This document shows, piece by piece, positions 27,564 through 64,000 of a stretch of 64,000 nucleotides of DNA. Both the position numbers and the translations under genes were made by a program. The stretch comes from Heterotrichella gracilis (Eukaryota; Sar; Xanthophyceae; Tribonematales; Xanthonemataceae). The notes beneath the pieces were generated by a model, which made no database searches, was not told where the DNA came from, and saw only the letters and a list, made by a program, of their open reading frames with translations. The stretch is taken from contig JAULBX010030041.1 in the NCBI GenBank assembly GCA_032358255.1, positions 1 to 64,000 of the forward strand, given 5' to 3'. Position 1 is the first letter of the stretch; every line of letters begins with the position of its first letter.

Positions 27564-28876
27564 TCAGCAATGGGCTCCCCAGCTGTCCTTGAACTCCCAA
27601 GGGAAGCCCTGCAGGTCAGCGTCAGTGGGCTGGCAGTCCAGGATCGCTCCCCCCCCCTCCCGCTTCCTCCAGCAATACCCCCCTTTCACCTGCGGGGCAA
27701 TGCGCATCCAGGTGCCCGGCGCGGTGTGCAGCTGCAGGCGCAGGGGGTGCAGGCTCCTCCACACCAGGCGCTGCAGACTCGGAAGCACCGGCACCACCAC
27801 CTCCTCCTCCACCTTCGCAGCCCCTTCACCCCCCACTTGGACACCCGCAAACACCACCTGGAGGTGCTTCAAGCTCCCCAGGTGCGGCAGCGACGCCATG
27901 AAGGGCGCATACTCCTGCCTGGACCCCAGCGCGATGGCCATCCTCTCCAGCAGCATGCCTCGGCCCTGCCACTGCGGCCCGCCCGGCATCAGAGTGAGGT
28001 GGCTGCCAGGCGAAACCACCGGCTGCGCCAAGTCGAGGGTGCGCAGCACGACAGGCAGGCAGGCTCCATGCATGGTGACCCCCTGACTTGTGCTGATTGC
28101 CAGCCGCTCCAAACCAGGTGGCAGGCTGCCGGGCCGCAGGGCGATGGACGCGCCTCCCTCCAACTCTAGGCTGCGCAGCGCGGTGCATGCAGCCAGGTCT
28201 AAGTCCTCGTCCCCGCAGAGGAGGACAATCCCCAGCGTGGAGAGGTGCGACAGGGTGCGCAGCTGGTGCAGGAGCCGGCTGGGGTGGGCCTGGAGGGGTG
28301 CGCTGGCAGAGATGCGCAGGCGGTGGAGGGAGGCGGGGAGCGTGATGGCTTTCGGCTCTCCGCTGTTGATAGTCAGGCTGGTGAGCCCCGTGAGGCTACC
28401 TAGTAGCCGCAGGTCTAACTTTTCCCTCCAGTAGGTCAACTCCAGGTTGGTGAGGCTGGTGAAGCCCCGCAAGATCCCACCCGCTGCGGTGCCCATCGCC
28501 CAGCCCATATCCTTCAGTTGGAGCTGGGTCAGGTGGTGGGGCGACAGGCTGCCCAGCACCCACCACACCAGCCGCTCGTCGTAGCTGCTCATCAGCGTCA
28601 AGTCGACGCTTTTGGAAGCTCTCAGGCGCGGGAGCAGCCAGGCAACCAGGTGGGTCAGCTCGGGGCTGCCAGCACGCTCATAGTCGCCCCACAGCATGTC
28701 CATGTACGAGTGGTCGTCGTCAGTGAGGGTAAAGTGGTCCCACGCAGTACTGGGCACGTCCAGGGCTTCTTTCCAGGCCTTGCACACCTCCTGGGCCCTG
28801 CCCTGGGACTGGAAGTTCACCCGGGCTAGGATGTTTGGAGCAGGGAGGACGGGAGGGAGTGGATGGTGGTGGCCAT
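27564..28876 (-). pseudogene. F-box/LRR protein, frameshifted at the N-terminus
   Basis: Minus strand, intronless. The family start ATG is at 28876 (MATTIHSLPSSLLQ), but one base is missing in the F-box: the paralogue reads CTCCAGAACATCC, here CTCCAAACATCC, so the start frame meets a stop four codons on. The rest (NILARVNFQSQGRAQEVCKAW to the end FPWEFKDSWG) is fully open in another frame to the stop at 27564, about 430 residues. LRR-like segments include LTSLTINSG and LERLAIS. F-box proteins are substrate receptors of SCF ubiquitin ligases. Recent decay, sequencing error or use of an upstream start (ATG 28907 is in the open frame, giving a protein with a changed F-box start) are all possible. 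Confidence 0.75.
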
Positions 28877-29631
28877 CGCAGGCACCTGCAACAAAGTGGG
28901 CCAACACGGTTTAAGAAATATTTTCATGGTCATATCATGGGGTGAGCACTTGAAGCTTGGAGAGAGTGGGCGTTCACCTGGTGATGCGTTGTCATTATGC
29001 ATGCATGCATGTGCATGTGATACTACCTTGATAAAGTTTCTTCAGTGGCGTTACAGATCTTCTTGGCAAACGAGCAAGTGGTGGCAGGCTTGCGAGAGCT
29101 TTAGAGAACGTTATAGCAGCAGGTGTGGTGTGATATGTGCCACATAACATGTGGGCGTTCTTGCAGCGTGCAACCGAGTCAGCGAGTGAAGGAAACGCCA
29201 GTCCTCCTTATGTTCACTCGATACTCCAACAGTCGACCCTTTGCAGATCTTCTTGAGGACGTCCAAGAACTTCAACACGGAGCTGTCAGCCGCAGCTTGC
29301 TTCAAGGTATTGGCGACCTTCCCTCCATATGCATGTATGCAACACATCTGCAGCTCCCTTGCTCAAACTCTCCTAAGGTGCTGGCTTTCCCTGCTTGCGA
29401 GTTGAGACAAGCTGTAAGTTGTGTAGTCACTAGTCGAAAGGTTCTACCACAGTGCAACCGCTCTGATAGCACCTCCCGTTTGCAAAGGCGTCAGCAACAA
29501 GGTCACACATCAAGCTCTTCCCCAGTTGCTGTAGAAGACGTGCTTCCTCACAACCCACGAGCAAAACACCAGAACTCCCACGTGAGCTTGTTGCCCACTC
29601 TTGGTGCAGGGCACCCACTGTACCTGCTCCG
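28877..29631. other. Intergenic region between divergent F-box paralogues
   Basis: Lies between a minus-strand and a plus-strand copy. ATGCATGCATGCATG near 28998. No gene supported. Confidence 0.5.
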
Positions 29632-30947
29632 ATGGACACCACCATCCACTCCCTCCCGCCCGCCATGCTCCAGAACATCCTTGCCAGGCTCGACCTGCAG
29701 TCCCAGGGCAGGGCCCAAGTGGCGTGCAAGGCATGGAAGGAAGCACTGGACGTGCCCAGCGCCGCCTGGGACCACATAGACGTGACAATTGAGGACATGG
29801 CGCATGCGTCTCACTTGTTTGCTACCTATGGTAATGGTGCCAGCTGGGAGTGGCCCTATTTCGCCGCATGGTTGCTACCTCGCCTGAGAGCAACCAGAAG
29901 CATACATTTAACACTCGATCTTGAAGAGGTTGTTGACGAGCGGCTGGTGTGGTGGCTGCTGGGCTGCATATTGCCGCACCAACTGAACCACCTCAACATG
30001 GGCGAGCAGCGGTGGGCGATAGGCGCTGCAGCATTCAGCGCGCTGGGAGGCTTCACCAGTCTCACCAGCCTGGAGCTGGCGTTCTGTAGCCATCCTGGTG
30101 ACCTGTGGGTGCTGGGGTGCCTCACCTCACTCACCAGCCTGATTCTGCAAACTGATGACCCTGGCCCTACCACGCTGCCAACATCGCTCCACCGGCTGCG
30201 GTTGACTGCCGATGACCCCTTGCAAGACCCCCCCCGCCACATCCTACAGCAGCTGCGCACCCTGCCCCACCTCAGCACACTGGCAATTGCCTTTTCCTCC
30301 AACGTGGACCTGGATTTGGCTGCCTGCACCGCACTGCGCTGGCTGGAGGTGGTGGGGAGAGATGCGAACATCACCCTACTGCATGACAGCTTGCCACCTG
30401 GCTTGGAACGGCTTGCAATCAGCACAGGCCAGGGCGTCACAATGCAAGGGGCGTGCCTGCCCCCTGCGCTGCAAACACTCGACCTGGCCCCGCCCTTGCC
30501 CTCGCCAGCCAACTACCTCGCATGGTTCCCAAATGGCCCACAGTGGCAAGACCGAGGCATGTTGCTGGAGCGGATTGCGATTGGGCTGGGGCGGCGCTCA
30601 GAGTACGCCCTGTTCACTGCGTCCCTGCCACACCTTGGGAGCCTGAAGCACCTGCAGGTGGTGCACATCAACCATGGGAAGTGCCACATGTGGAGGAGGA
30701 GGTGGTGGTGCCGTTCCTGCTCAGTTTGCAGCGCCTGGCATGGAGGAGCACGCACCCCCTGCGCCTGCAGCTCCACACTACACCAGGTGCAGCACCGGGC
30801 AGCTGGATACACACGCATGCGGGTGAGGACTATTGCTGGAGCAAGCACGAGGAGGGGGGCGGTGCTATTGTAGATGACCAACCCGCTGATGCTGACCTGC
30901 AGGGTTTCCCTTGGGAGTTCAAGGACAGCTGGGAGGCCAGCCGGTGA
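29632..30947 (+). pseudogene. F-box/LRR protein with a C-terminal frameshift
   Basis: ATG 29632 (MDTTIHSLPPAMLQNILARL) opens an intact F-box and LRR region (SLTSLELAF, SLTSLILQT, GLERLAIS). The family frame is lost between about 30664 and 30690, after GSLKHLQVV; the conserved C-terminus (EEEVVVPFL, SLQRLAWRS, GFPWEFKDSW) continues in another frame to a stop at 30945-30947. Unshifted, translation ends at 30873 with a non-conserved tail. A truncated but functional protein cannot be excluded, since F-box and most LRRs are intact. Confidence 0.8.
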
Positions 30948-31839: not shown

Positions 31840-33207
31840 TCAACGCTCGGTGCCCAGGTTGTCCTTGAACTCCCATGGGAAACCGCCCATGTCAGCATCA
31901 GTGGACTCACAATCCAGAACTGCCCCGGCCCACCCGTGCTTCCTCCAACAATATGCCTTACCCGCCTGCGGGATGATGCCCATAGTGGTCCCCGGTGCAG
32001 TATGGAGCTGCAGGCGCATGGGGTGGATGCTTTTCCATGCCAGACGCTGCAAGCTGGGCAGGAACGGTACCACCACCACCCCTGCAGCTGCCTTCCCCCT
32101 TGTTTTGGCACCGGCGAACACCACCTGGAGGTGCTTCAAGCTTTCCAGGTGCGGCAGGGACGCTGTGAAGAGGGCGTAGTCCTGTCGGCTCCCAAGCACT
32201 AGTGACATCCTCTCCAGCAGCATACCACAGCCCTGCCACTGCGGCCCATCTGGAAACCTTGCAAACTGGTTGCCTTGATGAGCCCACAGCCTAGCCAGGT
32301 CGAGTGTTTGCAGCGTAGGGGGCAGGCAGTCGCCGCGCATTATGATGCCCTGCCATGTTCTGATCGCCAGCCGTTCCAAGCCAGGTGGCAAGCTGCCGCG
32401 TTGGAGGGTGATGGGCTCCTCAGAAGAGAACTGCAGGCGGCGCAATGTGGTGAAGGCGGCGAAGTCTAGGCCCACTTGATCTGTCACGCCAAGGTTTGCT
32501 ACCAGAGTGGTAAGGTGAGGCATGGCATGCAGCTGTTGTAGGAGTTGGCTGGGGTGGTCGTGCAGAGGAGGGTCGGTAGACAGCTGCAGCCAGTGGAGCG
32601 AAGTTGGCAGCGTGATTGGCGCAGGTCTGTTACCATCCTCATCCGCCAAGTCATCGAGCAGCGCGGTCAGGGCCAGGCTGGTGAGTGAAGTGAGGCTGCT
32701 CAGCGATGCCATGTTGCGACCCGATGTGGGGTAGTCCAGATCCAGGCTGGTGAGGCTGGTGAAGACTCGCAACGTGCTGAATGCTGCACGAGTCATGCCC
32801 CAGTCCAGATCCCGGATGCACAGCTGCTGCAGTTGGTGTGGCAACAAGCAGGCCAGCAGCCACCACACCAGCCGCTCATCTCCCCCGTTGTCTTGGTCTG
32901 TAAGTGCCAGGTTGATTTTTTTGGCTGCTTTCACTCGAGGGAGCAGCCATGCGGCAAAGTAGGGCCACTGCAGACCACGCCCGTAGGTAGCCCACACCGT
33001 TTCCATATACACGTGGTCGTCCCCCGTCAGGTTTATGTGCTCCCATGCAGTACTGGGCACGTCCAGGGCATCCTTCCAGGCCTTGCACACCACCTGGGCA
33101 CGCCCCTTGTCCTTCAGGCCGACCCTGGCCAGGATGTTCTGGAGCAGTGAGGGTGGGAGGTCGTGGATGGTGGCCATAGTGACTGGTGCGGCAGGTGCCT
33201 GCAGCAA
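31840..33207 (-). CDS. F-box/leucine-rich-repeat protein (intact family member)
   Basis: Single-exon gene of 455 residues from ATG 33207, or 445 from the family start ATG 33177 (MATIHDLPPSLLQNILARV), which I think more likely. F-box at residues ~1-45 of the shorter form: LPPSLLQNIL, KDKGRAQVVCKAWKDAL, AWEHINL. Then irregular LRRs (FTSLTSLDLDYP, SLTSLTSLALTAL, HLTTLVANLG, LERLAIRTW, LQTLDLARL) and a conserved C-terminal region (SLQRLAWKSIHPMRLQLHT, YCWRKHG, GGFPWEFKDN). F-box proteins of this build recruit substrates to SCF ubiquitin ligases; the target is unknown. It is the only one of five paralogues here without a frame break. The repeated WEFKDS end has no known meaning to me. Confidence 0.85.
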   Translation of the reverse strand: MLQAPAAPVTMATIHDLPPSLLQNILARVGLKDKGRAQVVCKAWKDALDVPSTAWEHINLTGDDHVYMETVWATYGRGLQWPYFAAWLLPRVKAAKKINLALTDQDNGGDERLVWWLLACLLPHQLQQLCIRDLDWGMTRAAFSTLRVFTSLTSLDLDYPTSGRNMASLSSLTSLTSLALTALLDDLADEDGNRPAPITLPTSLHWLQLSTDPPLHDHPSQLLQQLHAMPHLTTLVANLGVTDQVGLDFAAFTTLRRLQFSSEEPITLQRGSLPPGLERLAIRTWQGIIMRGDCLPPTLQTLDLARLWAHQGNQFARFPDGPQWQGCGMLLERMSLVLGSRQDYALFTASLPHLESLKHLQVVFAGAKTRGKAAAGVVVVPFLPSLQRLAWKSIHPMRLQLHTAPGTTMGIIPQAGKAYCWRKHGWAGAVLDCESTDADMGGFPWEFKDNLGTER

Positions 33208-34741
33208 GTGGCAGCAACGAGCTCAAGCAGGTTTGGGTTGGTGGCTGTTCAGGGGTTGTTGAAGAATGCGCATGCGAGGCAGTAAACTTGTCCCAGCTAC
33301 TGGGAGGGTACAGCGAGTGTGACCGCTTGCTAATGGGATGAGAGGAAATTGGAAAAGCAGAGCGTCGTATGCAGCGTGGGGGAAGCATGTTATTGGTACC
33401 ATTCAAAGCAAGTATGCAGCAGACACGGCTGAAAACTTGGCCACTCAAATTCAACAGAGCGTGATGCAAAACAGGTGCATGTACATATGTTTATGCGTGC
33501 ATATGCAGTAGTACACCGCCGCACTTCAAGCGAACTGAAGAGGGACTGCAGTAAAGCAGCATCATATTGAAGCACACACTAGAACATACCGTCCAGGCTT
33601 CAAGGGTGCTGTTGCTGACGCCAATTTAGATTCGTGCCACCCCTGGCATCACCCAGAGCCTGGCTTAGACACTACTCATCCCCTTCCTTGTCTCGCTTGG
33701 ACACTAGATGTATCCTTATTGCTGAGAGGGGTACACCGTGTAAGCTTGCCAGCACGTCAATATCATACCAAGTCTGGTTGCTGGGGAAACTGTTCGAACA
33801 GCAGCTGGGGACCCATATTACAAGCTGCTATTATTTTCTCAGAATACTTGCGAGTCTTCCAGTCTTCGCTTGCATCTATACTCGGAATAAAACCATTATT
33901 CACCTTTCTGCCTTTCTGCGCTACCGTTAGCCACTCGCGAGTACCCGAGAAAGGTCGCAAGTGCATGCATGCATTCGCTAATTGAGTGCACGTTTCTTAC
34001 CGCAAGAGGGGGCCACCGCATGCCGCGGTCGCTGTGCGTTCTTTCTGACGCCGCTTCCACTTATTGTTGTGTCCTGCCCTGTCCTTGATTGTCAACGCTG
34101 CAGCTGCTAATTTGGTGCAGGCGGTAGCAGGTGGCTACCTAAACCCTAGTAGGGTTCTGATAGGGTTTCCTGTTTCTTAGGGCTGAGCGACATTCAGCAT
34201 ATGGCGACAGTCCCCGGGGTGACTGCCTGGGTTGCAGTAACTGCCTACGGTATCACTCACCATAGTCTTGCATGCACGTGGCAGTGCCGGTCTTTGGAGA
34301 GGGGTGGGTGGGGCGCAACACAGGTGTTCTTCAAACACCCCATGGGGCCAACCTTGCACGTTCTTATAGGTATACATCACTTTCATGTTGTTACACACGC
34401 CACCTTCAACTTTATCTAGAAGCGACGCTACTGAAAATCCATTATTGCATTTGTACATTGAAAGGGCTGGGTGGTAAGGTAACGACTGCAGTTGATTGAA
34501 CTACACACCCAGCCCAATCTCAAAGCATGGGCAGCACTGGAGCACTGCGGCAGGAGTCCTTAACCTGCAGGAATGCAAATAATTGCCTCTAGACTGGACT
34601 TCAAAGTGTCTGTGAAGCAAGTGGCCCGAGGCTCCCTACAACACACACTGTGTCCCAACGCTTGGCTGCCCAATAAAAGACACCTCAGCAGACCTCAGCT
34701 CTTAGCCTGTCTATGCATGCCCAGCAATGACCATTCCATCC
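33208..34741. other. Intergenic region between F-box paralogues
   Basis: No supported gene. Short GGGTTT/CCCTAA fragments near 34140-34165. Confidence 0.45.
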
Positions 34742-37064: not shown

Positions 37065-39212
37065 GTGGTAAACATCACAAGCTCCTCTAGTGCAGTCACC
37101 CACTGTGCCTGCTCTGAGGGGCACCAAAATGAGCTTGCTTCCCCCTATTCGCAGGAAGATGTCACCATAGCCACCATCCACGACCTCCCACCCCTGATGC
37201 TCCAGCACATCCTCTCCAGGCTCGACCTGCAGTCCCAGGGCAGGGCACAGGTGGTGTGCAAGTCATGGAAGGAAGCCCTGGACGTGCCCAGCGCCGCCTG
37301 GGACCACCTCGACCTCGGGAATCCTGAAAACGAAGGCTCCATGAAACCGCTGTGGACCGGCGAGAGCGCAGCTTGGCCCTGGCTGGCTGCTTGGCTGCAC
37401 CCGAGGGTGCGGGCAGCCAGAACCCTGGACATGCACCTCCTCTCTGGGACTGTACCCCTTGAGAATAAGGTCACGGAGCGTGTGGTGTGGTGACTGCTGG
37501 GATGCATGTGCCCCCAGCGCCTGACGCAGCTGCGGCTGCGGGTGGTCGAGGCTTCAATGGGCGCCGTGCCATGCAGCATGCTGCAGGTAGGGTACTAGTA
37601 CCAGGTGTACAGCGGTGGTCCAGAGTTGGGCTTGGTCTCATTGCTCCCCTGATTTTCCAGGTGAAACCCGTCACCTGCTTGGCCCAGCCCTGCCCGGCCC
37701 GGCCCGGCTTGAAGTCCAACACGCGTTTGCATACAGTGGCCAGCGCTCCTCCAGTGCGGCGGTGGTATAAGAAGTGTCAGAACAGGGCTGGTTGGCGCAA
37801 TGCATTTAGGAAAGACTGCTAACCTGACTGTATCGCTAAAGCACATAATATATTATATTATGTAATACAATGTAATATAATAAAAATAAGTATATAAGAA
37901 GTAAATAATGTTTATGAATATTACATTGTGTTACAATGGAATACATCAAGTTACATTGCATTGTATATTACAATAAGTTTAAGTTGACTTAGGTCAGCGA
38001 TCTTGTGTGCTGCAGGCCTTCACTAACCTCACCAGCCTGGATCTGACCTACTGGGGAGCAGAGTCTGACCTGCGGGTGCTGGCCAGTCTCACCTCACTCA
38101 CCAGCCTGGCCCTCAACTCGGGCTTCCCTGGGCCGATCACCCTGCCAACCTCGCTCCACCGGCTGCGCCTGGCGACCGACCCCCCTCCGGAAGCCCACCC
38201 CAGCCAACTGCTGCAGCAGCTGGCAACCCTGCCTCACCTGACCACGCTGGGATTGCAGATTATTGGGGACGTGGATCTGGAATTTTCTGCCTGCACCGCC
38301 ATGCGCTGCTTGGAGGTGGAGGGAGGGGGTGATGCGGTGCTCACAGTGCGTGCCGGCACCTTGCCACCCGGTCTGGAACGGCTGGCGATCGGCGGGTACA
38401 CCCTCATTGAAATGGATGATGCAAGCCTTGGCTGGCTGCCGCCTACCCTGCAAACGCTCGACCTGGCCCCGCAGCAGTACTACTTTGACGACATTCATTA
38501 CCGCGTTTGCGAGCCGCCTGCCGCCCCACGCCACGGCATGCAGCTGCGGAGGATGGCAATCTCCCTAAGTTCCCAGGAGTACTACGCGCCTTTTTTGGCG
38601 TCCCTGCACCGATTTGAGCACCTGGTGCACCTCCAGATTGCGTTTGCACACCATGTTGCAGACCTCCCCAGGGACCAGCAGCCAACTGATGTAGTGGTGG
38701 TGCCGTTCTTGCCCAGCTTGCAGCGCCTGACGTGGAGGAGCATCAACCCGCTGTGTATGCAGCTGCACACAGAGGCGGGAATCTGGATGGGCGCCAACCT
38801 TCAGCGGCAGCAGGTGTGTACTCTCACGCTGCCTCTTCTTCAACCAACGCCTTCAATGAATGCCATGCCATGCATTACTGATCCTTGCCATGAGGTGCAT
38901 TTTACTGTGCACGCATTTCCAATGACAAAGAATTTGCGTCCACTGACATATAATGGCCACATGTCAGGGCACGTGCATATGCCAATATTGAACGGAATTT
39001 CCTGAGGTAAGAACATGGTACTAGATCCTTTTCAAAAAATGACAATGTTTCTGTGCAGGTGTACTGCTGGAGGAGGGACCAGGGGGGTGGTAAAAGCCTG
39101 GAAGACCAAGTTCAGCTTGCGCCGGGTCCCCACGATGGATATGATGAGATAGATGTGTGGCTTTCCATGGGAATTTGAGGACGCCTGGGGGCTCAAGCAG
39201 CATTTTTACTAG
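37065..39212 (+). pseudogene. Intron-containing F-box/LRR pseudogene
   Basis: Exons 37065-37586, 38016-38813 and 39059 to about 39212. The family start codon is ATA here (TIATIHDLPP against TMATIHDLPP in the intact copy), leaving the upstream in-frame ATG 37065. A TGA at 37491-37493 replaces the Trp of VVWWLLG. The third exon is shifted: its frame ends early while FPWEFEDAW is encoded in another frame up to TAG 39210-39212. Exon 2 is a clean 266-codon block of LRRs (NLTSLDLTYW, SLTSLALNSG, GLERLAIGG). The two introns are absent from the four paralogues, and sit at positions where protein length is unchanged. Confidence 0.85.
37587..38015 (+). other. Intron unique to one F-box paralogue
   Basis: Exon before ends ATGCTGCAG, the intron ends GTGCTGCAG, then GCCTTCACTAACCTC. 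Paralogues read straight through here (CTGGGAGGCTTCACC). The intron is AT-rich in its second half (about 37850-37980). The GCTGCAG at both ends is a direct repeat. Confidence 0.7.
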
Positions 39213-56342: not shown

Positions 56343-58654
56343 ATTGTTACGCTTGCTAGCCGTGTCTGCGTGGGTGATGGGGGTCACAAATACCAAGCAA
56401 TGACTTGCACCGGCTTAAAAGCGCAGCGCATACGATGTTCTGCTTGCAAAACCCACAGGTGTGCATGCATGCAAGCTCACCCAGATACAATGCATGCATA
56501 TGCCCACCTGAAGAGATGGGGCCTCCAGGCGGTTTACACTCAGACTTCAGAGTTGTGGTATGCTAATTCGGAGGCAAGTGCGAAGAGAGGCGCGCCTGTT
56601 CGAGCAGGGACCATACCAAGCCCGAACTCGAAAGATGGTGCCCGGACAGTGTCTACTGGCTATTTTGTGGGATGGGTATGTACATACGACTGCACACCAC
56701 GGCTTAATGAGCAGCTTGTATGGGTGTATTGACCCGGTTCTACAGCTGCGCCCTGTGGACCAATAGGGCCCAAAGGTTTGGGCCAAACTTTTGGCCTAAA
56801 GCTTGGGCTGACGTCATCATACAGATGGTGATCCTTCCTGCAAGCGTGAAGGCACAAAAATGGCATGTGATCAGACGGCAGTACGCCGCGGGTGGCTGAC
56901 CTGGCATTACCTCACCCAAAGTGGACTCTTGCAATCGCAAAAGCTGAACGTACCTGAGGGCTCTATTTGGCAGTGCCAAAGCGATTGGAAAAGCCTGCGA
57001 GACTATCAGCTAAAGATACACATCGCGTTGGATGTTGGTGTGGCGCAAGGCCTTACAGCAGTCCGCATGCACGTAGAGCTGCCTTGAGGTGTGTCAAACC
57101 ACAATTCTAGAGCCCACTGGTTCGTGTGACCCGGACCTTCAAAGCCACCGCCCACGGCAAACGCTGGGCGCTTTTGGCAACAGTTTTGGGCCGAAAAGGG
57201 GCAGCAGCAAGCCGCGGTTGTCATTGGAGTTCCAGCTAGGGTCAGAAACAGACTCTGTGCTCTTGCTGCAGCTGTGAGCCCATCAGGTCCAATCAGCGGC
57301 GACCTATTCAGCGCCTGGGCTGTGGCAGGTACACCCCCAACCCCCAATTGCAACCTCCTTTTCAAACCCACGTCCATCCTACAGCGAGTTTCGTGGCAGC
57401 GTGGGACGTCGAGCTCACATTCAGCGCCACTCGCCGCTTGCATAGTGAAGCATGCACCAGCCTTGGGCATGCCAGGACAGCCGCGACCAAGGGACATCAT
57501 TCTATTTTCATCACGTGTCAGCTGCATCCCGCATCCCGCGGCGGTGCCCACTATCTCATGTGACTCTACCTAAACGTTGGTGCACTTTCGGCGCGCACTC
57601 GTGTCTTGTAATTGGTCACAGCGCTGTTGTAACTGGCTGACATCGGTGCCCACCCAAGTCAGCTGGGTGCACAATGTACCAGGGTTTCCCTTCGGTTGTT
57701 GCAACGTTTGCACTGGGAGTCTCGTGTGGGGCACGCACCCTCCGCGCCTTCGGAATCCCTTCCTTTTGCGCTCTCCCTTGCCCTGCTGGGCCACGGCTTG
57801 ATTTGACAACACCTGTACCGGTGCTTGGTGGGTGCAGGTCCGCGCGCGGGTCTAGAGCAGGTCTCTAGTGCCACCCACGTTGGTCCAACGGCTCTTGGGC
57901 TCAGCTCCAGTGGTGTACCTGTTTCGTCCAAAACAGGGGGGGGACGGGAGCGGCCCCTGTATTCCTCTTGTCACCGCCGCAGCGTGGCAGCTGTGACCCA
58001 GAAGCTATCATCCTCCGGAGGAATAGGGCTGCAAGCTACTCCAACCAGGCTCTATAACAGAACCAGGTACGTGCACAGCCACTGCTCTCCATAAGAAGCC
58101 CACCCATTGTGCCGTTGCATCCCATGAATACAAGGTTTACCCTCCATGTGGTAGGGTTTACCCCTCCCTACCCCCTCATGCCAGACGCACCTCCAGCCGC
58201 ACCTTCTGCACTGACAATCACGCTGGCGATAGTGTCCTTGAACACTTTTGTAGGGTCCCTTATCCCTCCCTATTCCTGACCCTCAGTCACGTGTTGCAAC
58301 TTGCAACGCCGCCTATGCCCCATCGGGATATGAGGCGGCACCTCCCTAGGGCCTCCATCACCCTGACCCCACACTATCTGTTGCCCAAAGCGCTCACTGC
58401 CACCTGTGCCCTTCCCCTATTGGCTCCCAGGGCTGTGGCAAACCACCACTGCGTTTACCAATGCCCCCCCTGCCAATGCCGCCCTACAACAGGTCCCACC
58501 CTCAATTGTGTAGGGATCACCCTCAAATAGGGAATCCTCAACTCTGGTCACTCTCCCTATTCCACCGTCCTCTGTGTAGGGGACCTTTGCCCGTTAGGGC
58601 CTTACTCAACCCTAATTACCCTTCCAAACCCTTGACCCTAACCGTGTTGCGCAG
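56343..58654. other. Region before the kinase; possible 5' exons
   Basis: No gene can be fixed. Several stretches on the plus strand look exon-like: about 56920-57070 (VPEGSIWQCQSDWKSLRDYQ), about 57160-57330 (WQQFWAEKGQQQAAVVIGVP, ending in donor gtacac), about 57825-58066 (Ser/Gly-rich, ending AACAGAACCAG|GTACGTG), and near 58195-58250 a hydrophobic stretch (PSALTITLAIVSLNTF). If joined, they would give the kinase an extracellular or N-terminal region and a membrane helix, but I could not close the phases. Confidence 0.35.
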
Positions 58655-58668
58655 GCGCCGCTCCACCT

Positions 58669-61600
58669 ATGCCCGTCCCCGCCTGGCTGGCGGGGCTGTG
58701 GCACAACAACGTGCTGCTACCCAGCCACCCTACCACCCCCCCCTCGTCGGAGGAAACCCCTCCCCAGCTTTCCTCTAGCGGGAGCAGCCAGGAGGGCCTG
58801 AGCATGGCGGCGCCATACCCTAACGAGGGTTCCAGGGGCCGCAGCACCCTGGTCAAGGGTTTGGTGCAGGCCGGGGCGGACATCGTGTGGCAGTCCATCA
58901 TCCTCAGCCCAGATCAGGTTGAGACCGTGACTGACAGCCAGGGGAAAGGGGTTCTGCTGGGGGAGGGCGCGTTTGGCAAGGTGGGTGTTGGGGTCAAACC
59001 CCTAATTAGGGTCTGGCAATGTGGGTGATGGGGAAAGGGGTGCTGCTGGGGGAGGGCGCGCTTGGCAAGGGGGGTGATGGGGTTTAGGGTGTAGGGTTTG
59101 GCCAACGGGTACTTGTCCGCTGTGCCTTTACGGGGGGATGCTGTGTATGCCTGTCAGCGGGTGGGTTCTGTGAGACAGCCATGGGAAGAAAGAAAGAAAG
59201 GGGACACACAGAGTCGTAGTCAAGGGGCCACTGGCTCGCACCAGGGCACCGACCAGCCAGAACGGGAAGAATGAACCCAAGCACACACTAGGGGTTTTCA
59301 GTCCCTGCAAGCTGCACCCAACCAGACCCACCGCCACGCGCTGTGCGACAACTGACCGTATCCCCCACCAAGCACGGAACACCACCACTCTGATTACTCC
59401 AAGCACACACACCCAACCATTACTCACAGGTGTACCGCACCCGCCTGGATGGCAAGCTGCCCGTAGTGGTCAGGTAGCCCTGCACCCTACGTTCTAAACC
59501 CTAAACCCTACACCAAAAACCCTATTTCCCCCCCTCCTCCACAGGTGTACCGTGCCCGCCTGGATGGCAAGCTGCCCGTGGCAGTCAAGGTGCTCACCCT
59601 CAATGAAACCCACCACCGGGAGGCGTTCTTCCGGGAAATCGCCATCCTGCGCCAGATGCAGTCCCCGCTCATGGTGCAGTGCATTGGCGTGGCGGTTGAC
59701 CACGACAACCGGCTGATGCTGGTGACAGAGCTCATGCGGGGGGGGTGCTTAAGGACGGCTATCACCCAAGGGCTGGGCCGGTGGCATGCCAGGTGCGGTG
59801 CAGGGTTTTAGGGTACACGGGCTAGGGTTTATTGAGGAGGCGCTAAGCTGTGCCAGATTTATTGACCGATCATGGCGCACTGCATTTGGCGGGTGGCGGG
59901 TGCACAGCAGCATCAGGCTGGTGGTGGTAACGGAAGGGAACAGCTACCACCCAAGGGCTGGGACGGTGGCACGCCAGGTAGGGTCTAGGGTTTTGTGGAA
60001 GCAGGGTCTTGGGATCTAGGGCAGGGTTGTCCAGGGAATTGCCATCCTTTGCCAGGTGCGTCCATTTTGTGTGGCATTGGTGTGGTGGTGGACCACGGTG
60101 CACGGCTCGTGCTGTTGACAGAGGTCATGCGGGGGGTGGCTATCACCCAAGGGCTGGCCTGGTGGCATCCCAGGTGTGGGGCAGGGTTTTGGTGTCTATC
60201 GGTATGCCTGAGATGATTTGACGATTTTGAGATTGATGTCTCAGCGGGAGTTGGGTTACAAACGATATCAGGCCACCGGTGCTGCACCTTGGTGGCTCCC
60301 CAATCACCCTGCCACCCCACCCACCCACCCACCCACCGTGATAAGTTGTTGGCCGCCCCACCCACCCACCAAACCCCTCCCCCCTCCGCAGGGGCAAGCG
60401 CATCGCCTTGGATGTGGCCATGGGCCTGCACTTCCTGCACTGCCGGCATGTCATCCATTTCGACGTGAAGAGCGCCAATGTGCTGCTGACGTCAGCGCTG
60501 ACTGCCAAGCTGGCGGATGTGGGGCTGGCAAAGGTGGGGGGGACTGGATATTTTTTGGGCTGGGATTGCATTTTTGGGTGGGGACTGGGTATTTTGAGTG
60601 GGGTACTGACTACATGTTGTTTTCCCGGAGGATGGACAACAGTCATCCGTTCAAGTGTGCACGTACGAGCTGGAGCTGCATGGTACAATCCAAAGCGCTG
60701 TTCCATGTTGAAGTGCCATGCCATCCTCATCGTGCAACCCGCAACCTTTCTGCCACAAGTATCTATCTGCCGGTGGGCACATTCAACTAAATCCCTATCT
60801 CTGAACCCTAATGTCCAACCCATCTGCCGCAGGTGGCCGGCAGCGACGGCAAATGCGTGGGCGCCCAAACGGGCACATTCAACTACATGCCCCCCGAGCT
60901 ATTTGAGTCCCGGGAATGCAACGAGAAGGTGGACATTTATGGGTTTGGGGTGATATTGTGGGAAATGATGACAGGGGGCGTGCCCAAGCGAGGCGCGCTG
61001 TACCCACCTAAGTAAGATAGAACTCTAGAACGAAAACATTGCAACCCTAAGTCCATGCTCATCATTACATGGTGGTGCGCTGATGAGGCATGATGAACGT
61101 ACAAGTACAGAATGTTGGGAGCAGTCTCCAGCCCACTACAATATTTGGCTGGTGTATTTTCTGTTTGCGCGGTCAAAATTCCCAACCACCTGTGGACACG
61201 TCACCTGTCCCCAAACCCTACCTGGTCGCCACATAACCCTACCTGCCTGTCGAAAGACCCGAGCAATTGCCTGAGAACACATGATCACTGATGAGCACCT
61301 GATTTGATTATATCCCTGGCTAGTCCCCAAACTCCTACCCACCCGCCCAGTGCCCTGGAGGATTGCCCCAAAGAGGCCCAGGAAACCTAGCTCGACCCTG
61401 CAAAATCCTAACACCAACGGAATATCCTATTGATTCCACAGGGTGCCCGAGGACTGCTCCGAGGATGCCAAGCAGCTGCTGACTGCCTGCCTGTCCGCCA
61501 ACCCCGACGACCGCCCTACAGCTGGTGAGGAGTTAGGGTTAAATAACGTAGTGTTCAGGGGAGTGGGCATTTTTGTTGTTACTGCCTATATCTGTGCCTG

Positions 61601-64000
61601 GCCTGCTGCTGTTTGCCCTAGACTGCTACCAGCAGCAGCTTGCTTTGCGGGGTTTCACCCCCTCGCACTTTGCTTCCTTCAACGTGCGCTTTTCTGTCCC
61701 AGGCCAGGTCATCGTTCAGGTGTTTAAGATCATGAATACTGTATTTTTCCTCAGTATATTTCTTATACTAGTTTAGATTTAGAGTAGTCCTCCCCAAAAG
61801 GAAGTTGTATAGATAAAGTACTAAACTATCTGAAACTGATAGTACTGTGGCTTGCCTCCCTCAGGCCAGGTCATTGAGTCCCTCATGGACCTTTCCAAGG
61901 CGGAGCAGAGCGGGCGCACGCGATCCAACAGCGCAGAGTTCAGCGCCCGCCGCCTGGCGGGGCATGACGCCGCGGCCAGCGGCCGCACATCCCTCGACAT
62001 TACCCTCCCCGTAAACTCCACCTCGGCCCTACTAGGGCATTCTCTTGCCGCGCCAAGGGGGGCGCGCTCGATGACCGCGGCAGGGGAGGAGGCGCACAGC
62101 TGCGCCGCAGGGGGGGGGGGAGCCAAGGGGGGCAGGTCGAGCTTCAAGTCGCCCTTTACGCGGGCGGCGCTGGAGGACGGGGCGCATGCGGAGGTGGGTG
62201 GTTAGGGTTTTGACTTTGGGGAGCAAAACCCTTGGGGTTGGTATCACCCTTCTTACTTATATACATGCGTTCCAGCGATACAGCCAGATTAGCAGTCTGT
62301 CCCTCACAGACAGAGGCGCAATCTGTCTGTCCTACATGCCTTATATTAAAAACTCTAGCTTGTTTCATTGCAGCCTGCATGGATTACATGTATCAGAATG
62401 TAGGGCATCAACCTGCCTCGATTTGCTTCCACCCACCCACCCATCCAAGTTGCTCCATGCCGCACCAACACCCCCACTCACCACAAACCCTCAACCCTCA
62501 ACCCTAAAACCCACCCACCGCCCGCCACAGGCTGCCACCCATCCGGGCCACGCCGCTCCACACTCTGCCCCTGCCTTCTTGCCACCTGGCGCTCTACCAG
62601 CCACCGCCACCGTGGCGGAGGAGTCAGGGGGGGAATCTGAGAGCAACCTGGAGGTGCTTGGGGGCCTGTCGGAAATGTCCGACATTGTGCGCAGCATCTA
62701 CAAGGGGGTGCTTTCGGACCCGGAATTAAAGCCCTTTTTCGCTGGGGTGAACATGGCACACCTGCTGGCGAAGCAGGTGAGGGTGAACTGGAGTGATTGA
62801 CAGTGGTGGCTGCAGAGATGTGACGGCAATTGTCCCCTCCTGCCCCTTTTCTCCAACCAAGGGTAATAACATAATAAACATAGACGAGGGCTGTTGATAC
62901 TATCTCCAAGGGTAATAATCTGATAATAGGACCCTCCATTATCTTATTACCCTTGTTATCTCATTACCGTTGCTCATACCAACAAGTCCCCATTACCCCC
63001 CCTCTCAGACGCAGTTCATGGCGTTCCTGATCGAGGGGCCCGACTGCTACAAGGGCCGCAGCCTGGGTGCGGTGCACTGGCGCCTGGTCAAGCAGATGGG
63101 TCTGAACCGGGGGCACTGGAGGGGATTCGAGGGGCACATACGCGCTGCGCTGGTCAAGCACGCGGTGCCTGAGGTGGGTGAGGACAGGAGTATTACTATC
63201 TTATTACCCTTGGTGAGGGTGAGGATGAGGGGGAAAGGACAAGGGCGGTGTATGTGTGCGCTCATCGTACACCCCTGTGCACTACCAAATACCCTACATG
63301 ACAGGTCCAAAACCCCACTGCCTGTTAACCAAAACCCCGTCCCTAGGAACCCACCACCCCTACCACACACCACATGGAGACCACCAAAACCATGTCTACA
63401 ACCCTGCCAACCCCCATTCCCATTTTCACTCCCCAGGACCTCACCACCCGCATCATGGCGCACGTGGACACCACCAAAAAGGCCTTCCCAGAAGTCGAGG
63501 CCCCATCCCCACAAGACACCGGCAGCAACCACAGCGTCAGCGGAGGGGGTGGGGGGTCTGTGGTGCAGGCCATGGGTGGCCTATGGGCTGTTTCGGCTGT
63601 GGTGGAGACGCTCTACGAGACCATGCTGTCTGACCCGCGGATCGAAAGGTTCTTTGCAGGGGTGAACGTCAACAAGCTGATGCGCAAGCAGGTGCGTCAC
63701 GGTATTCGCGGTAAAATAATGCCAAATAATAAAGAAAATAATGAATAATAAGGGTGGTTGTCAACATGCTGATGCGCAAGCAGGTGCGCCACGGTTTTTG
63801 CAGTGAAAATGGCCAAATAAGGAACACTCCATGCATATCAGCGAAGTCTTTTCTAACCCCTTGCATGCCCCCCCCTCCAGATCCAATTAATGACCCTCAT
63901 TTTCGAGGGCCCCACCCCCTACAAGGAGAGGGACCTGGCCAAGTGGCACGAGCAAACTCTAAGCCTTAATTCCTACTGCTGTTTCACGCATGTCACTGAG
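58669..64000 (+). CDS. RAF-like protein kinase fused to two truncated haemoglobin domains (3' partial)
   Basis: Exons: 58669-58980 (upstream acceptor at 58653-58654, so the true start may lie further 5'), 59545-59792, 60392-60533, 60833-61011, 61442-61524, 61865-62193, 62531-62776, 63009-63173, 63437-63691, 63881-64000; every phase closes, 693 residues in the window. Kinase: [14 protein letters not shown] (Lys), FFREIAIL (Glu), [18 protein letters not shown] (DVG for DFG), [32 protein letters not shown] is typical of plant RAF-like TKL kinases. A Ser/Ala/Gly-rich linker (~110 residues) follows. Haemoglobin 1: [19 protein letters not shown] (Tyr B10), LLAKQTQF (Leu E7, Gln E11), [10 protein letters not shown] (proximal His). 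Haemoglobin 2: [37 protein letters not shown]. These match group I truncated haemoglobins. Both domains have an intron at the same site (KQ|). The second domain is cut by the window end. If the intron at 62194 is retained, a stop follows within five codons, giving a kinase-only form. Confidence 0.85.
59030..59083 (+). repeat. Copy of the kinase glycine-loop exon end
   Basis: GGGGAAAGGGGTGCTGCTGG plus GGGAGGGCGCGCTTGGCAAG repeats 58940-58980, i.e. the GEGAFGK codons and donor, in the following intron. Confidence 0.9.
59425..59474 (+). repeat. Copy of kinase exon 2 start with acceptor
   Basis: CACAGGTGTACCGCACCCGC and onward for ~50 bp repeats 59540-59589. The copy has an intact acceptor but runs into an in-frame TAG after 15 codons. 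CCCTAAACCCTA units (about 59499-59512) lie between copies. Confidence 0.9.
59925..60180 (+). repeat. Two decayed copies of kinase exon 2 3' half
   Basis: Copy A at about 59925-59980 (GAACAGCTACCACCCAAGGG, GACGGTGGCACGCCAGGT). Copy B at about 60026-60180 covers ~155 bp (GGGAATTGCCATCC, GTGTGGCATTGGTGTGG, GAGGTCATGCGGGG, GCTATCACCCAAGGGCTGG). The true exon part is 59630-59795. Confidence 0.85.
61694..61720 (+). repeat. Copy of an acceptor and exon start
   Basis: TGTCCCAGGCCAGGTCATCG repeats the real junction CCTCAGGCCAGGTCATTGAG at 61859-61878. Could serve as an alternative acceptor. Confidence 0.8.
62858..62955. mobile_element. MITE-like foldback elements, adjacent copies
   Basis: CAAGGGTAATAACATAATA at 62858-62876, then a foldback at 62917-62955 (CAAGGGTAATAATCTGATAA ... 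ATTATCTTATTACCCTTG). Inside the intron that splits haemoglobin domain 1. Confidence 0.7.
63190..63212. mobile_element. MITE-like half element
   Basis: TATTACTATCTTATTACCCT followed by TGG; one arm of the same foldback, in the next intron. Confidence 0.6.
63754..63800 (+). repeat. Copy of a haemoglobin-2 exon end with donor
   Basis: GTCAACATGCTGATGCGCAA then GCAGGTGCGCCACGGT repeats the true exon end at 63668-63703 (GTCAACAAGCTGATGCGCAA). Confidence 0.9.

Follow-up and report, generated by a model that had tools for sequence, protein, structure and literature searches.

A putative gas- or redox-sensing kinase with C-terminal truncated haemoglobin domains, and its gene family, in Heterotrichella gracilis

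The group-I 2/2 haemoglobins of Chlamydomonas, among which THB5 is named beside THB1 and THB4, are the close known systems with which the gene analysed here can be compared. Both THB1 and THB4 have Lys-E10, as do the two globin domains of the present gene (THB4 also has Leu-E7), yet they are described as single-domain, unlike the predicted protein considered here. As far as the available text of two articles goes, Chlamydomonas has at least 12 truncated haemoglobin genes (PMC7082302), and the functions of its truncated haemoglobins are poorly known (PMC4620153). The sixth haem ligand is reported to be Lys-E10 in THB1, THB2 and THB4, whether the haem is oxidised or reduced; THB10 and THB11 also have this residue but are five-coordinate when reduced (PMC7082302).

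The same article mentions, in one sentence of the available text, multi-domain 2/2Hbs and 2/2Hb domains fused to 'protein kinase or nitrate reductase', and such fusions have the joining of globin and kinase in common with the gene described below (PMC7082302). The mention is a single phrase, which in that text comes without species, kinase type, domain number or pocket (PMC7082302). Globin-kinase fusion as such is already mentioned in print, the present family is a variant of it, and the opinion of the initial annotation that nothing of the kind had been described is not borne out in that wording. A description of a kinase-globin gene family was not met in the available text of the open PMC literature, including PMC7082302, PMC4101818, PMC4304232, PMC5745447 and PMC4620153 (most subscription papers fall outside this scope), and name forms for a globin-kinase had no match in the same open literature. 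In bacteria, a haem globin and an output domain are united in one protein in the globin-coupled sensors, histidine kinases included, according to the available text (PMC7082302).

The gene model and its encoded domains

The window is the whole stretch of DNA that was analysed, namely bases 1 to 64,000 of contig C749 (184,613 bases long), which belongs to the 68.5-Mb, 903-contig assembly in which the genome searches were made. The gene runs beyond position 64000, and adding the next 6 kb of C749 gave a complete gene of 11 exons that join with all phases closed into 733 amino acids and a TGA stop. Its start codon, at 58669, is assumed, and a further exon may lie upstream; the three upstream ORFs tested held no Pfam domain, and a search of a phage collection with window 58642-60000 was empty. 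All ten introns are of the form GT...CAG, and the proposal that kinase exons, linker and globin exons join with closed phases (GT donors and CAG acceptors, exons 2-9) was confirmed.

All exons within the window lie on the forward strand. Exon 1 (58669..58980, from the assumed start codon) encodes an N-terminal extension without a Pfam domain and the start of the glycine-rich loop. Spliced alignment and residues place exon 2 (59545..59792), with the kinase N-lobe, the catalytic Lys and the alpha-C Glu, exon 3 (60392..60533), with the HFD catalytic loop and the DVG motif, and exon 4 (60833..61011), with the activation segment (PPE) and alpha-F; spliced alignment also places exon 5 (61442..61524), the C-lobe end of the kinase. 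Exon 6 (61865..62193) encodes the last kinase helix and a Ser/Ala/Gly-rich linker, and ends at a phase-0 donor, gagGTGGGT. The linker continues into exon 7 (62531..62776), which holds truncated haemoglobin domain 1 as far as E11, exon 8 (63009..63173) carries this domain from E12 onward, and exon 9 (63437..63691) comprises its end, a Gly/Ser linker and domain 2 to E11. Domain 2 runs past the window into exon 10 (contig C749 64082-64246) and exon 11 (contig C749 64580-64657), the latter with its end and the TGA. The kinase and globin exon borders were reproduced by a purpose-written spliced-alignment program, which for the window is a consistency check only, because the query was the modelled protein itself; for the paralogs described below, by comparison, the spliced alignment is a fresh prediction.

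Searched against Pfam, the predicted protein contains one kinase (Pkinase, aa 96-326, E 1.4e-47; PK_Tyr_Ser-Thr, 4.2e-47) and two stretches of Bac_globin (E 1.4e-25 in the whole model), the architecture that had been predicted for it. Each globin domain searched apart gave 5.8e-11 and 1.2e-14, that is 43.1 and 55 bits against a Pfam cut-off of 21. Both domains originally recognised were thus recovered, and what did not stand was a second domain-2 exon inside the window, for which the only candidate (63881..63953, +) is a truncated copy of exon 10, 86% identical to it, that was left out of the model.

Tyr-B10, Phe-CD1, Leu-E7, Lys-E10, Gln-E11 and His-F8 (THB1 numbering) are present in both domains, in domain 1 as the first five on exon 7 and His-F8 on exon 8; four of them had been named at the outset, and Phe-CD1 and Lys-E10 were found in addition, Lys-E10 being absent from the initial annotation. 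The best PDB match of both globins is THB1 (1.7e-17 and 9.1e-27), and the closest solved relatives are Chlamydomonas THB1 (4xdi) and THB4 (6bme). The strongest PDB globin matches are labelled group 1 or are THB or cyanoglobin proteins, entries that we take to be group I, and the weakest (1.2e-4 and weaker) are presumably group II; assignment of the window domains to group-I truncated haemoglobins rather than to other groups is supported by these matches. The two domains have in common two phase-0 intron sites, after E11 and before the last helix, so the common site previously noticed is real but is one of two. Every globin exon of the gene starts and ends in phase 0, which would allow a domain to be duplicated without a frame break, and the proposed duplication of the globin domain is supported.

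As for the kinase, the catalytic Lys, Glu, HFD Asp, Asn and DVG Asp are retained, including all those claimed for it originally. Its PDB matches are near-equal for CTR1 (1.1e-29), CERK1 (1.1e-28) and IRAK4 (2.7e-27), and an EGFR construct, SYMRK and B-raf are also among the best. These matches point to a TKL-type kinase and support only partly its earlier placement as RAF-like: CTR1 is the best plant match, but CERK1 and IRAK4 score nearly as well.

Within window 59030-60173 and 63752-63953, the introns contain partial copies of neighbouring exons, 71-95% identical to them, as if exon fragments were often duplicated locally in the introns of this gene. Besides the exon 10 copy, these include a decayed partial copy of exon 2 (60030..60173, +, 71% identical), a short copy of the start of exon 2 (59430..59472, +, 88% identical) and others at 59030-59069, 59848-59934, 59940-59977 and 63752-63783. 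The introns also hold short AGGGTTTAGGGTTT-like (telomere-like) runs, seen by eye, for example at window 59490-59530 and at L006 4250-4290 (L006 6900 corresponds to C749 66900). Elsewhere in the window, F-box ORFs above the Pfam cut-off occur at 29470-30870 (+) and 31843-33222 (-), and sub-threshold leucine-rich repeat matches at 27567-28910 (-) and 37983-39002 (+); with these four of the ten ORFs tested with Pfam, there is an F-box/LRR cluster on C749, as judged from profile matches. Downstream of the gene, an F-box/LRR-like reading frame was recognised by eye at L006 6900-8230 (contig C749 66900-68230).

The family of loci and the question of one gene or two

A genome search with the first globin domain of the window (38 of 38 candidates scored) and one with its kinase (119 of 419 scored) meet on the same contigs. 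Kinase and globin profiles place a kinase followed by truncated haemoglobin domains, on the same strand, at eleven loci on nine contigs, with 28 globin domains: two in the window gene (C749), one in C106, two in C150, one each in C270 and C272, six in C277, six in each of the two C376 loci, one in C413 and one in each of the two C427 loci. An assembly artefact or chance adjacency was considered and rejected, because the arrangement recurs at eleven loci on nine contigs. A second genome-wide search, with a globin of the six-domain type as query, brought up no further contig. Stand-alone group-I globins were found on C161, C556 and C141, and another globin on C306; none of these four contigs has a kinase at 1e-5 among the kinase candidates scored. 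With 77 bits, the C306 globin (L001, L003) gives the best Bac_globin match of the genome; it scores poorly with the group-I profile of the window and may belong to group II. The two C376 genes (41500-68601) lie head to tail about 15.7 kb apart, and at C277:223350-223650 (-) three tandem copies of a globin-exon fragment, about 99 bases apart, sit beside the sixth domain.

In principle, the kinase and the tandem globins could belong to two adjacent genes that have been duplicated jointly. The distance from the kinase end to the first globin start is 419-1476 nt at all eleven loci (for C270 and C277 the end of the kinase was placed manually), and the way in which this junction might be spliced was evaluated with home-made donor and acceptor scores. 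The top-scoring donor downstream of the kinase has phase 0 at 9 of the 11 loci, with a tie at C270 and phase 2 at C427b (the donors used at C272 and C376a are weak phase-0 sites). For acceptors ahead of the globin, the top score falls on a phase-0 site at 8 of 11 loci; the window presents a tie of four, and the others are C106 and C272, in which last the second-best acceptor is in phase 0. This excess of phase 0 on both sides argues against separate genes, although the junctions of C106 and C427b (2 of 11) do not close by the phases of their best-scoring sites, which speaks for them.

Start codons give a similarly divided picture. In 5 of the 11 first globin exons (C106, C150, C272, C277 and C427a), the stretch from the previous stop up to and including the first aligned residue has no in-frame ATG, which counts against a globin gene with a start of its own; C376b was dropped as a sixth such locus, its first domain residue being itself Met. 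The evidence for fusion is weak on this point, because a nearby ATG is likewise missing from C141, one of the three stand-alone globins (C161 and C556 have one upstream), and because at C277, where the alignment begins within the domain, Met is the second residue aligned. Domain 1 of the window has just two in-frame ATGs upstream, 107 and 157 codons away; they would provide a separate globin gene with a start, but both precede the predicted acceptor. The C272 junction is short for two genes, at just 419 nt; it contains three ATGs, none in the globin frame and none then followed by a consensus donor within the junction.

The pentanucleotide TGTAA is the green-algal poly(A) signal. The junctions, 10,249 nt in all, hold a single copy where 7.6 would be expected from the contig, and there are 20 copies in 32,929 nt of globin parts; of the 11 3' flanks examined (345 to 4,089 nt), 6 have it. 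If it serves as the poly(A) signal here, its scarcity in the junctions speaks against a kinase gene that ends there. Conservation of the linkers, considered as a test of coding, was not observed in the two close pairs tested, which counts in favour of two genes. Kinase distances correlate across the 11 loci both with those of the last globin domain (Mantel r 0.66, p 1.5e-4) and with those of the first (Mantel r 0.61, p 2.5e-4). These tests (junction, ATG, TGTAA and distance) share ancestry and are not independent. Taken together, they make two separate genes unlikely, and we regard the paired-gene explanation as improbable and the fusion of a kinase and two globins in one gene as very probably real. 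The eleven paralogous loci, the correlated divergence and most of the junction tests bear out the single fused gene of the initial annotation.

Divergence and history of the family

The kinase tree comprised the 11 globin-linked kinases and 18 of 19 other modelled kinases (C309 was dropped for its low score). The 11 form one clade (support 98/95) together with six kinases not linked to globins (C198, C392, C314, C465 and C149 twice), and this tree requires that the globin part was gained or lost at least twice. Downstream of the sister kinases C392, C314, C198 and C465 there is no globin in 2.5-2.7 kb more DNA; for the two C149 kinases, the genome-wide globin searches found none on that contig and the DNA examined ends at the kinase.

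In the globin tree, the kinase-linked domains are not one clade, since they are interspersed with THB1, THB4, a Synechocystis globin, C556 and C141, and for this reason one simple fusion event is not favoured. The position of C161 is unresolved. The C427 pair groups in both trees, and C150 and C272, which are sisters in the kinase tree, have in common one supported globin clade that also holds THB1, THB4, SynGlbN, C556 and C141. The C376 pair is grouped in the kinase tree, and the pairing of its globin domains 1, 2, 5 and 6 has starred support; the pairing of domains 3 is weaker, and domains 4 stay apart. In addition, the domains 1 of C277, C376a and C376b form a supported trio, and so do their domains 2. 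From this pattern it follows that most of the six-domain array predates the C376 duplication. As far as these trees go, one fusion, several fusions or loss of globins from kinases are all compatible with them.

Conservation of the functional residues differs between the two parts of the proteins. Every one of the 10 loci at which the N-lobe is covered retains the kinase Lys, alpha-C Glu, HFD Asp, catalytic Lys and Asn, DxG Asp and alpha-F Asp (C270, whose N-lobe start was not found in the DNA examined, is outside this count). The HRD motif reads HFD in all 11, which makes them non-RD kinases. In the globins, His-F8 is present in 24 of 28 kinase-linked domains, and the exceptions, which look degenerate, are the C106 domain and the first domain of each of the three six-globin genes; the C270 domain keeps His at F8 and has His at B10. 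Lys-E10 is kept in five of the 28 (two in the window, two in C150, one in C272) and in all three stand-alone group-I globins; in the six-domain genes, E7-E11 calls are unsure because the CD-E region carries insertions.

One might consider that the window gene is decaying, with its intronic exon copies and divergent globins as signs of lost constraint. Several of those copies are indeed decayed, and the first domains of the six-globin genes lack His-F8, but in the window gene itself the reading frame is open, the splice sites are kept and none of the catalytic and pocket residues examined is lost. Moreover, NG86 dN/dS is below 1 in 12 of 12 comparisons (globins 0.22-0.64, kinases 0.26-0.39, leaving out C376 domains 1 and 4), including domain 1 against domain 2 of the window (0.53), and we consider decay very improbable.

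A proposed sensor kinase and its relation to known systems

The reading that we favour, with moderate confidence, is that of a single gene, one of an 11-gene family, in which a TKL/RAF-like kinase is followed on its C-terminal side by two group-I truncated haemoglobins, and whose product acts as a gas/redox sensor kinase. What the comparison of loci demonstrates of it is the recurrent architecture, the joint divergence, the kept catalytic and haem-pocket residues and dN/dS below 1. It is likely, with good confidence, that the window copy binds haem. In the proposed mechanism, each window globin would do so through His-F8, and in the resting state Lys-E10 would be the sixth ligand, as it is in THB1 of Chlamydomonas. 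Lys-E10 would then be displaced, and helix E shifted, by O2, by NO or when the redox state of the haem changes, and this shift would turn kinase activity up or down by way of the linker or of a change in oligomer state. The number of globin domains would set the sensitivity of such a one-piece gas/redox sensor kinase. A Lys switch acting on the kinase is proposed because Lys-E10 is the sixth ligand in THB1, according to the available text (PMC7082302); by analogy, THB1-like and THB10/THB11-like behaviour of Lys-E10 are both possible in the window globins. One Lys switch cannot explain the whole family, because 4 of the 28 domains have no His-F8 and only 5 have Lys-E10. We place the chance that the window protein has a sensor function at even or slightly better.

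The main rival accepts the fusion and sees in the globins a local NO dioxygenase, nitrite reductase or haem store near the substrates of the kinase, without gating of the kinase. It is the main one because THB1, the closest solved relative, is itself an NO dioxygenase that receives electrons from nitrate reductase, as the available text has it (PMC4620153). Up to six domains in a row would suit a scavenger, and the variation in junction length and linkers also speaks for this rival; the position of the globins C-terminal to a kinase that keeps its catalytic residues, and the correlation of kinase and globin distances, argue against it, and we judge it unlikely, although less so than the alternatives discussed above. 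Under the sensor reading, the attached kinase tells directly what the output of the globin is, so that gas-to-phosphorylation signalling could be tested with one recombinant protein, and the paralogs with 1, 2 or 6 globins, with ligands lost or kept, form a ready comparative set.

In relation to known systems, the window protein has its kinase domain in common with CTR1 (TKL/RAF-like) and differs from it in the HFD and DVG motifs, in the C-terminal globins and in an N-terminal part that was tested and is without a Pfam domain. In globin-coupled sensors the globin precedes the output domain, and in the bacterial ones it is of the 3/3 sensor type, whereas here group-I 2/2 globins follow a eukaryotic-type kinase; the window domains match group-I 2/2 proteins and not the 3/3 sensor globins. 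We tentatively suggest, as an idea that may well prove wrong, that these genes are lineage-expanded eukaryotic sensor kinases, with 1, 2 or 6 haem globins in cis to a TKL kinase and a tunable number of haems that would read gas or redox state through different ligand sets, with Lys-E10 in some and not in others, and that they represent a counterpart of the bacterial globin-coupled kinases built independently from truncated haemoglobins.
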